A DNA stretch of 40,256 nucleotides from the NCBI RefSeq assembly GCF_028330525.1, contig NZ_JAQMSD010000101.1:1-40256 (forward strand), read 5' to 3'. The translations under genes were made by a program, and so were the position numbers. Each line of letters starts with the position of its first letter. Positions within the stretch are counted from its first letter, which is position 1. Below the pieces are notes generated by a model that worked only from the letters and a program-made list of their open reading frames with translations, did not search any database and had not been told where the DNA came from. The stretch comes from Spirulina sp. CS-785/01 (GTDB taxonomy: Bacteria > Cyanobacteriota > Cyanobacteriia > Cyanobacteriales > Spirulinaceae). This document shows positions 25,550 to 39,358 of the stretch, piece after piece.

Positions 25550-25695
25550 GGCATACGCCTGGGGTTGACATTCAAGGCTAATAGCTGAAACCTGTTAAAA
25601 AGGGGTTGGGAGATTTATGATCAGGCATACGCCTGGGGTTGACATTCAAGGCTAATAGCTGAAACCTGTTAAAAAGGGGTTGGGAGATTTATGAT
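25550..25695. repeat. 74-bp direct tandem repeat, two copies
   Basis: A 72-base identical segment starting GGCATACGCCTGGGGTTGAC begins at 25550 and again at 25624, a period of 74 bp. Each copy contains the core AAGGCTAATAGCT (25574-25586 and 25648-25660), which recurs with similar flanks at 29872-29884. It lies in the 430-bp gap 25474-25903, which holds repeats only. Confidence 0.85.
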
Positions 25696-36553: not shown

Positions 36554-36694
36554 ATGAAGTTGGGGGATCGGCAATGGGGTTTTAGTGTTTTTTCTGCCGA
36601 TCAGGTTGCTCTATCCCCTAGGGAGATAGGGTTGAGCCAAAAAGGGTTGAGCCAAAAAGGGTTGAGCCAAAAAGGGTTGAGCCAAAAAGACTAA
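36554..36694 (+). CDS. candidate small protein with C-terminal GLSQK repeats
   Basis: This unannotated frame of 46 codons plus stop begins at ATG 36554 (MKLGDRQWGFSVFSADQ) and ends with four exact GLSQK pentapeptides, Asp and TAA (36692-36694). The pentapeptides are encoded by the 15-bp array at 36629-36688. It lies antisense to the remA-gmk spacer. A weak AAGGG lies about 15 bases upstream. The repeat itself is automatically open in this frame, so only the first 25 codons count as evidence, and chance is a real alternative. The parallel with the ORF at 38928, which has the same plan, is what makes it notable. Confidence 0.3.
   Translation: MKLGDRQWGFSVFSADQVALSPREIGLSQKGLSQKGLSQKGLSQKD
36629..36688. 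repeat. four perfect 15-bp tandem repeats
   Basis: GGGTTGAGCCAAAAA is repeated exactly four times. The period is 15, unlike the 7-bp arrays in most other spacers. It lies between remA and gmk. On the + strand it reads GLSQK in the open frame; on the minus strand it would be part of the remA-gmk intergenic transcript. Confidence 0.95.
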
Positions 36695-37140: not shown

Positions 37141-38880
37141 ATGCAGTCGGTTGATTTGACAACGTTGGTGGCAGTGGCCCAAGATTTAAGGTCGCGCTGG
37201 ATTCCAGCCCGGACTGAGCAGATTTTTCAGCGCGATCGCTATACCCTTGCGATCGCCCTACGCACACTCCAAGGCCGCGACTGGTTGACCATTTCGTGGC
37301 ATCCCCAAGCCGCGAGACTTTGCATGGCTGATCCCCCCCCCAAAGTTCCCGACACCTTTACCTTTAGTGACCAACTCCGACACCAGTTAAATGGACTGGC
37401 CCTAATTGCCATTGCGCAACAAGACCCCTGGGAACGGGTCTTAGATTTACAATTTGCCCAACGACCTGGAGAAGACCCCCTCTGGCATCTCTATGTAGAA
37501 ATTATGGGCAAATATAGCAATGTCATCCTCACCGATGCCCAAAACCAAATTATCACCCCAGCCTATCAAGTGGGGAGCAAACAATCTTCAGTCCGGACCG
37601 TCCAAACCGGACAACCCTACGAACCCCCACCCCCCTTAATGGGCAAAATTCCCACCCGCGAAGAAACCTACTCCGACTGGCAAGAACGAGTCAGCCTAGT
37701 TCCGGGCCAACTGCAACGCCAACTCTGTAAAATCTATCGAGGGGTGAGTCCGGCGGTGGTGCAATCCCTCGCTAAAGGGGCAAATCTCGACCCTAAACAG
37801 AATACAGAAACATTAAGCGAGGCCGACTGGCGCAACGTATTTGCAGGTTGGCAAAAATGGCTGGAAATTCTACAAACTGGGGACTTTACCCCTGGATGGA
37901 CAGAGAAAGGTTACACAGTGTTACCCTGGGACTGTGTACAGCCTGTAGAGGACGTGCAAGACTTATTACGGGATTACTACCAACAACAGTTAAATCAACA
38001 GGCATTTCAGCAATTACGCCATCAATTAACCCAGAAAGTGAGTAATCTGTTAGGGAAGGCCAGACAAAAAGCCCAGACTTTCCGCGATCGCCTCCAACAG
38101 TCCGGAGAGGCCGAAGACTACCGCAGCAAAGCCGACCTCCTCATGGCCTACCTACACCAATGGCAACCCGGAATGGCAGAAATTACCCTCAACGACTTTG
38201 AAACCGGAAACCCCATCAAAATCCCCCTCAACCCCGAAAAAAACGCCGTTCAGAATGCCCAAGCCTTATACAAGCAACATCAAAAGCTAAAACGCGCCAA
38301 AAGTGCCGTTCAACCCCTCCTAGAGGACGTTCAACGAGAAATAGACTATCTGGAACAAGTCGAAGCCAGTCTCCATCAAATCGAAGACTATCAAAACCCC
38401 GACGACTTACAAACCCTCAGCGAAATTCGAGAGGAGTTAATTCAACAGGGATATTTAGAAGCCCACCGAGACAGCGATAAAAATAATCCAGAATCTCAGC
38501 CTTATCGCTATCCCACCCCCTCCGGGTTTGAGGTGTGGATTGGCCGAAACAACCGTCAAAACGACGAACTCACCTTTCGGATGGCCAACGAGTACGATCT
38601 CTGGTTTCACACCCAAGAAATTCCCGGTAGTCATGTGTTATTACGCCTAGAACCCGGTGCAGTGGCGGATGACGCTGATCTTCAATATGCAGCAGATTTA
38701 GCCGCCTATTTTAGCCGAGGCCGACAAAGTGACCAAGTTCCGGTAGTCTATACAAAGCCCAAATTTGTCTATAAACCCAAGGGCGCGAAACCCGGTATTG
38801 CCATTTACAAACGAGAACAGGTATTGTGGGGACGATCCTCTCAGGCCAAGCAACATTTACAGAAAAATTCGGAAAAATAA
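37141..38880 (+). CDS. rqcH: NFACT family ribosome quality control protein RqcH
   Basis: RqcH binds stalled 50S subunits carrying peptidyl-tRNA and directs addition of C-terminal Ala tails that mark the peptide for degradation. The 579 residues comprise an NFACT-N domain opening MQSVDLTTLVAVAQDLRSRW, a helix-hairpin-helix region (QLCKIYRGVSPAVVQSLAKG near 200), a coiled-coil middle (about 285-440) and the C-terminal NFACT-R segment NEYDLWFHTQEIPGSHVLLR near 485. It is often annotated as fibronectin-binding in error. GGAGAGG lies 8 bases before the ATG. No terminator follows until 39104, so the 3' transcript may include the small ORF at 38928. Confidence 0.95.
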   Translation: MQSVDLTTLVAVAQDLRSRWIPARTEQIFQRDRYTLAIALRTLQGRDWLTISWHPQAARLCMADPPPKVPDTFTFSDQLRHQLNGLALIAIAQQDPWERVLDLQFAQRPGEDPLWHLYVEIMGKYSNVILTDAQNQIITPAYQVGSKQSSVRTVQTGQPYEPPPPLMGKIPTREETYSDWQERVSLVPGQLQRQLCKIYRGVSPAVVQSLAKGANLDPKQNTETLSEADWRNVFAGWQKWLEILQTGDFTPGWTEKGYTVLPWDCVQPVEDVQDLLRDYYQQQLNQQAFQQLRHQLTQKVSNLLGKARQKAQTFRDRLQQSGEAEDYRSKADLLMAYLHQWQPGMAEITLNDFETGNPIKIPLNPEKNAVQNAQALYKQHQKLKRAKSAVQPLLEDVQREIDYLEQVEASLHQIEDYQNPDDLQTLSEIREELIQQGYLEAHRDSDKNNPESQPYRYPTPSGFEVWIGRNNRQNDELTFRMANEYDLWFHTQEIPGSHVLLRLEPGAVADDADLQYAADLAAYFSRGRQSDQVPVVYTKPKFVYKPKGAKPGIAIYKREQVLWGRSSQAKQHLQKNSEK

Positions 38881-38913
38881 GCAAATTTTTTTAAAAAAGT
38901 CCGTATTTGCTGT

Positions 38914-38919
38914 TACAAT
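38914..38919 (+). promoter_or_regulatory. possible -10 element
   Basis: TACAAT lies 14 bases before the GTG of the small ORF at 38928. No convincing -35 is found 16-18 bases upstream (the sequence is A-rich), so this is weak. Confidence 0.2.
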
Positions 38920-38927
38920 ACTCAATT

Positions 38928-39071
38928 GTGAAGAAATATTACGAGCAACACCCCCGGAGAGGGTATGGCTTCGATTTCCTCATTGACTTAAACGACAGAG
39001 ACTTAAACGACAGAGACTTAAACGACAGAGACTTAAACGACAGAGACTTAAACGACAGACTACGAACTTGA
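38928..39071 (+). CDS. candidate small protein with C-terminal LNDRD repeats
   Basis: This unannotated frame of 47 codons plus stop starts at GTG 38928 (KKYYEQHPRRGYGFDFLI follows the initiator). It then encodes four LNDRD pentapeptides and a fifth ending LNDRLRT, with TGA at 39069-39071. A TTG at 38907 could extend it by seven codons. The head is rich in Tyr, Arg and Phe. The tail alternates acidic and basic residues. A strong Rho-independent terminator begins 6 bases after the stop, which is the best support that this is a gene. A 180-nt RNA without translation, or the 3' end of the rqcH transcript, are the alternatives. There is no Shine-Dalgarno. Confidence 0.4.
   Translation: MKKYYEQHPRRGYGFDFLIDLNDRDLNDRDLNDRDLNDRDLNDRLRT
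38986..39060. repeat. five 15-bp tandem repeats
   Basis: ACTTAAACGACAGAG is repeated five times, with only the last base of the fifth copy changed (G to C). The period of 15 preserves reading frame; on the + strand it reads LNDRD and on the minus strand SLSFK. Confidence 0.95.
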
Positions 39072-39077
39072 GTCAAG

Positions 39078-39104
39078 AACCAGCAAAATGATGCTGGTTT
39101 TTTT
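39078..39104 (+). terminator. strong Rho-independent terminator
   Basis: AACCAGCA (39078-39085) pairs perfectly with TGCTGGTT (39092-39099) around a 6-base loop, followed by TTTTT. It ends the rqcH or small-ORF transcript before tRNA-Phe. Confidence 0.85.
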
Positions 39105-39156
39105 GTTGGGAGCATCCTCAATATCTCCTCACCATGAACAAATTTAGAAAATTTTG

Positions 39157-39186
39157 TTTGCAAAATTGATTTAGGTTTGCTATATT
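39157..39186 (+). promoter_or_regulatory. possible tRNA-Phe promoter
   Basis: TTTGCA (39157-39162) and TATATT (39181-39186) are 18 bases apart and would start transcription about 15 bases before the mature tRNA. Confidence 0.35.
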
Positions 39187-39208
39187 AAATAATTGTCAGT
39201 CAAAACAA

Positions 39209-39281
<73 letters not shown>

Positions 39282-39358
39282 TTTTTTTTATTATATTTTC
39301 TAGGTTAGCGAGTTGGCTTGAGGGCTAGTCTCTAGTCCCAGTTTACCGGAATCTGGAG

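Follow-up and report, generated by a model that had tools for sequence, protein, structure and literature searches.

Does the perfect fivefold repeat downstream of an rqcH-like gene in Spirulina sp. CS-785/01 encode a small protein, or does it form the core of a regulatory RNA? The question arises within a 40,256-nt stretch of contig NZ_JAQMSD010000101.1 (hereafter the window), for which an original prediction, made from the letters alone, had offered both possibilities. The locus sits between an NFACT/RqcH-like gene (37141-38880) and tRNA-Phe (39209-39281); the rqcH-like gene and every part of the RNA gene described below lie on the forward strand. Our analysis gives good support to reading the interval 38924-39104 as a non-coding structured small RNA gene. 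The second of the two possibilities, a small RNA with a repetitive core, is therefore the one supported, and it can be sharpened to an NsrR1-type sRNA whose core is the target-pairing box.

Layout, distribution and structure of the RNA gene

The perfect 15-bp array was confirmed at 38985-39059 (GACTTAAACGACAGA x5; TRF period 15, 5.0 copies, 100% matches, score 150). Its score is the second in the window, behind that of a perfect tandem pair with a 74-bp unit at 25550-25695 (score 292). The original prediction had set its period apart from a period of seven in nearly all other spacer arrays. Most other arrays listed by TRF do have a period of 7 or a multiple of it, but a second perfect 15-bp array (AGGGTTGAGCCAAAA, 4.1 copies) occupies 36628-36689, in the spacer upstream of the same rqcH-like gene. 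The frame proposed from GTG 38928 to TGA 39069-39071 is open over 47 codons and does carry the array, but the predicted five LNDRD pentapeptides need a small correction: the peptide reads VKKYYEQHPRRGYGFDFLID, LNDRD four times and then LNDRLRT, or five DLNDR when counted in those units. Any 15-bp array that lacks internal stops keeps its frame open automatically, and across 38985-39059 this holds for two of the three frames, so the open frame says little about coding. The perfect 8-bp hairpin (AACCAGCA/TGCTGGTT) was found as described at 39078-39099, six bases past the stop, with a T-run at 39098-39104. Stem and T-run make up an intrinsic terminator (39078-39104), the stem of which shows compensatory changes among homologs. 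A simple terminator scan of 38700-39300 listed no terminator, the likely reason being a clash between the scan's stem rule and the T-run.

A DNA search of the 13 genomes of the window's family revealed conserved blocks flanking the array position on both sides, with the repeated box single in the relatives read. Downstream of rqcH, many named cyanobacteria share one anatomy, consisting of TGTTACAAT, AAGAAAT, a hairpin with TTGGGAAC, GATTTCCTC, AACGACAACA and a CCAGC...GCTGG terminator. In the window, the RNA gene (38924-39104, its 5' end predicted to within several nt) includes a 5' hairpin domain at 38933-38978, in which folds and pair counts join GAAAT (38933-38937) with ATTTC (38974-38978) around a variable inner stem-loop. 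There follow a TTTCCTC box (38975-38981), conserved in alignments and reading TTTTCTC in most of the window's family, the array, a terminal box CTACGAAC (39060-39067) and the terminator. Among 87 homologs read, the tandem array of the pairing box is present in one, the window's own. Two loci (L112, L123) from genomes already included were omitted when homologs were gathered.

Two models were used to follow the RNA across genomes. The first, R1, was built from 31 named cyanobacterial rqcH-downstream sequences, none of its seeds bearing a Nostocaceae name. Of 80 named rqcH loci it found 41, its 31 seeds among them, and it also matched 106 of 291 phylum genomes, where weak near-threshold matches may be due to chance; on the window it matched the terminator alone (E 0.41) and missed the hairpin. 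The second, R2, comprises 26 sequences, includes the hairpin and excludes the window. In the window it picked out 38928-39019, at 35.0 bits (E 6.2e-5 with filters off; E 0.0082 at whole-genome scale), a modest score because the array interrupts the model. Within the window's family, 12 of the 13 genomes matched R2 at E<=0.01, seven of the 13 being seeds; the non-seeds are G000 (the window's genome), G003, G006, G007, G011 and G012. The thirteenth genome, G007, matched at 0.175, with boxes readable by eye. R2 also matched 78 of 386 phylum genomes under strict filters and 196 of 217 genomes of a family (f6) taken to be Nostocaceae. Among the matches listed for the phylum and f6, each genome has one, except G474 (38% contaminated). 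The RNA is widespread in the window's order.

Several variants were observed in this survey. Bridging forms in G003, G005 and G006 combine the canonical GGGAACGCGCAACA hairpin with the family-type AAACGACA box, and in G006 and G003 (L167, L168) the RNA so composed lies away from rqcH. The homologs of G011 and G012 (L018, L019) are longer by about 50 nt in the hairpin region and retain both conserved boxes. The 21 of 217 f6 genomes without an R2 match include seven of genus g162 (6.5 to 12.4 Mb) and three of g156; g162 is absent from the R2 matches listed. Membership in a known Rfam family was considered and rejected, as the gathering score returned nothing but tRNA in the window and in 13 RNA-bearing loci. 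A permissive scan of 38700-39200 gave three chance-like Rfam matches, all with E above 1.

Support for a conserved fold comes from pair counts in alignments of these homologs. The 5' hairpin was written by hand from single-sequence folds and its pairs were then counted, so the hairpin pair counts lean on that choice. In the 26-sequence alignment, 85.5% of cells pair, compared with 73.7% after shuffling, and 63 cells show double changes, compared with 24.5 (0 of 500 shuffles as high); sliding the structure along the alignment gave 14 to 27 such cells. With the window included in a 30-sequence alignment, the covariation score was 0.327 against 0.194 for shuffles (0 of 500). On this alignment (A2), however, neither the number of pairs changed on both sides (reached by 154 of 500 shuffles) nor that of further pair types (93 of 500) rose above shuffles. 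RNAalifold recovered the terminator stem alone on alignment A1 and no pairs on A2, and it never proposed the hairpin. Single hairpins fold mildly better than their shuffles, with weak z of -0.9 to -2.3; that of the window (38933-38978) reaches -13.9 kcal/mol by itself (z -1.13), and the whole window RNA, terminator included, has a fold z of -3.16. Mean unpaired probability is predicted to be 0.57 in the array and 0.38 in the hairpin.

Promoter and relation to NsrR1

The RNA appears to have a promoter of its own. A -10 box, TACAAT, lies at 38914-38919 with TG ahead of it, as also picked up by a promoter scan, and is present in most homologs. Across it runs an NtcA-type site of the form GTA-N8-TAC (GTATTTGCTGTTAC, 38903-38916), in a register common to homologs. 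Five of the 87 homologs have no -10-like box; 74 of the 82 that have one carry GTN10AC in this one register, including 13 of 13 in the window's family, while GT at other offsets was found in 1 to 34. The fuller pattern GTRN8TAC fits 11 of the 13 family promoters. The T directly upstream of GTN10AC, present in 51 of 82 homologs, is absent in the window, which has C there.

This arrangement resembles that of NsrR1, an RNA of about 110-112 nt from Nostoc sp. PCC 7120 that is repressed in nitrogen stress partly by NtcA (PMC6166021, PMC7281752). The NsrR1 promoter is described with a GTRN8TAC NtcA site partly overlapping the -10 box, and the T before that site is called conserved, not defining (PMC6166021). 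The two descriptions of NsrR1 have C63 and C66 of NsrR1 pairing with G-18 and G-21 of nblA and the region around U51 pairing with a second target, all1871, and they confine NsrR1 to heterocystous strains and close unicellular relatives (PMC6166021, PMC7281752).

We used 21 f6 homologs as stand-ins for nsrR1 of Nostoc 7120 in residue numbering. When the first C of GACAAC was set to 63, the next C fell at 66 and the implied start, a plausible one, 4 to 7 nt past the -10 box in all 21. Under the same numbering, U occupies position 51 in three of the 21 (L139, L184, L187). On the target side, nblA has G at -18 in four and at -21 in three of the five f6 genomes read. Residues 58-67, through which NsrR1 is published to pair, correspond to the conserved 3' box, which is the box repeated in the window, and R2, with f6 (Nostocaceae-type) sequences among its seeds, also matches the window. 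The window RNA ends in its terminator about 180 nt from the predicted 5' end, and it is this long instead of 112 nt because of the 75 bp of array. Family identity with NsrR1 is likely on these sequence comparisons and stops short of proof, given that C63 and C66 fit all 21 homologs but U51 only three, and that stand-ins were used. The literature searched, mainly open-access papers, contained no report of NsrR1 beyond those strains or of a repeated seed.

The nblA leader and the repeat array

The reading that we favour, and consider probable, is that of an NsrR1-type sRNA in which the seed AAACGACAGA has been amplified to five 15-nt units plus the terminal box, acting probably as a multivalent repressor of nblA. 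With nitrogen plentiful, the RNA would be made and would pair with the leader of nblA mRNA over the ribosome-binding site, and pairing would block synthesis of the phycobilisome-degradation adaptor (NblA). Under nitrogen stress, NtcA would shut the RNA off and nblA would be released. The array would lengthen the duplex and multiply the binding sites on each RNA molecule; we infer that its amplification has a regulatory benefit.

The nblA gene of this genome lies on the minus strand at G000:C300:577-726, with its start set to an upstream ATG by homology and with the leader AGTCTCTCGTTATAGTCTCTCGTTCGTAGTTTGGAGGAAATTATG. This leader contains an 11-bp direct repeat of period 13, the longest in 16 leaders, the 15 others having at most 8. 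In the predicted duplex, the RNA unit pairs with each leader copy and the junction AGAGACT pairs with AGTCTCT; the terminal CTACGAAC pairs with GTTCGTAG, and TTTCCTC with GAGGAAA in the Shine-Dalgarno stretch. Because an array in the RNA faces a doubled complementary site in the leader, the RNA-target pair is probably multivalent.

The computed energies are consistent with this pairing. The window RNA with its own nblA leader reaches -47.1 kcal/mol, a value that none of 120 other leaders attains (next -40.6). A simple ORF rule had picked these leaders, some from the window and the rest from nine stretches of the genome. The computation ignores internal structure and uses 101 nt of the window RNA, compared with 45 nt in the other RNAs; when the first 45 nt of this part were taken alone, the value was -37.3 with nblA and again none of the 120 was as low. 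Across the 15 genomes other than the window's, own RNA-leader matching was equalled by none of 20000 permutations, and for the 10 family genomes among them by 10 of 20000. In the swap table, the own leader ranks first for five of the 16 RNAs. The genome that best fits the published residues, G564, has an own nblA duplex of -16.8, at rank 5. In a class-level relative, G195, the nblA leader (L223) has an 18-bp direct repeat of period 20 opposite a single-copy RNA (L122), which is partly complementary to the doubled site (duplex -24.1).

At the scale of the whole window genome, a search for the perfect complement of the repeat unit found, at zero mismatches, the array itself alone; at two mismatches there were seven sites, and total counts were similar to those of the reversed control. 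Own nblA pairing had no advantage over swapped pairing in 16 more distant genomes (-13.2 against -13.65, with 14717 of 20000 permutations doing equally well), so nblA is not a universal target of the RNA, and a function in pairing with nblA throughout its range is not supported. In these distant genomes it may act on other targets.

The most serious rival accepts an NsrR1-like RNA and treats the array as a neutral minisatellite, produced by slippage in a tolerant single-stranded stretch and of no regulatory effect. It shares every step but the last with the favoured reading, and the probabilities of the two overlap. The genome does have many short spacer tandem arrays, the 15-bp one at 36628-36689 among them, and the seed array is present in a single homolog of a genus represented by one genome. 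Against neutrality, the unit contains the conserved target-pairing box, its five copies do not differ, and a tandem duplication in the nblA leader, not seen in other leaders, is complementary both to the unit and to the junction (AGAGACT/AGTCTCT). We therefore consider a neutral array unlikely, if still a real contender. Predicted duplex energy falls from -26.3 without units to -47.1 at four units and is flat beyond, and this saturation counts against the amplified seed that we favour. Complementarity at the junction exists only through the array, which suggests that both sides evolved together. A reciprocal amplification, in which the sRNA seed multiplied along with the tandem-duplicated leader site to give one multivalent pair, is a further proposal, which we put forward tentatively.

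Other readings and known systems

Three further readings dispense with the RNA, add a peptide to it or attach it to its neighbour. The first is a repeat protein of 47 residues (VKKYY...LNDRD) whose translation would begin at a leaderless GTG, the form in which the predicted repeat-expanding small protein would exist. Its frame is uninterrupted along the array, the period of which is divisible by three. Homologs were compared for this frame in 39 of the 87 cases, those without the 5' or 3' box patterns being dropped. In 11 of the 13 family homologs, a set with near-duplicate pairs in it, the spacing of the two boxes is divisible by three, but it is out of phase in the other two, and in the 26 homologs outside the family the phases number 5, 13 and 8. 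Within the same family set, the GTG position is a start codon in only four of 13 homologs, and five have a stop in this frame before the 3' box is reached. The conserved DNA, moreover, covers promoter, boxes and terminator, and the structure covaries. With start, frame and stop-free stretch unconserved across homologs, we reject a small protein gene as very improbable. A further reading makes the interval merely the 3' UTR and terminator of the rqcH-like gene before it. That gene lies outside the RNA but often accompanies it: here the two are neighbours that run in the same direction, and in 22 of the 30 best phylum R1 loci the gene is found upstream, on the RNA's strand, within a 1.5-kb flank. 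This reading is hardly credible given the RNA's own promoter with a conserved NtcA-type site, its position far from rqcH in G003 and G006, and the finding of rqcH in a 5.5-kb stretch at none of five loci in genus g14. A dual-function RNA, with a small peptide added to the regulatory RNA in this lineage only, would draw on a frame that happens to be open in the window, but the peptide is unconserved and GTG 38928 falls on, or a few bases from, the predicted RNA 5' end, so that a ribosome-binding site would have no space ahead of it, and we give this reading very little credence.

If an NsrR1-type sRNA with an amplified seed is the correct reading, the range of NsrR1 grows to much of the order, with the NtcA-type site in place. 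The locus would then offer a natural experiment in sRNA evolution, with a tandem seed and a doubled target site in one genome, and such doubling of seed and target would open avidity, stoichiometry and threshold effects to existing reporter assays. It also carries a warning that small open frames across repeat arrays can be RNA seeds.

Among known systems, Yfr1 and Yfr2 are comparable in being cyanobacterial sRNAs that are widely conserved and carry short unpaired motifs (PMC2662882, PMC4734099). The Yfr1 core motif was found in none of the 87 homologs, and Yfr2 was considered and set aside on its published description (PMC2662882). The heterocyst-specific NsiR1 is similar in being a cyanobacterial nitrogen-related RNA tied to tandem repeats, but by the title of its report it is encoded within an array of repeats, while here a short box is repeated within one RNA. 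The closest parallel is with NsrR1 itself (PMC6166021, PMC7281752). The window lineage is outside those given for NsrR1 there, and U51 is unreproduced in most homologs. Shared features are an NtcA site over the -10 box, the length class of the homologs, the terminator, and a GACAAC-type pairing box that is correctly placed and has the nblA leader as its computed partner. What distinguishes the window RNA is its tandem pairing box, its length of about 180 nt compared with 112, and its place between rqcH and tRNA-Phe.
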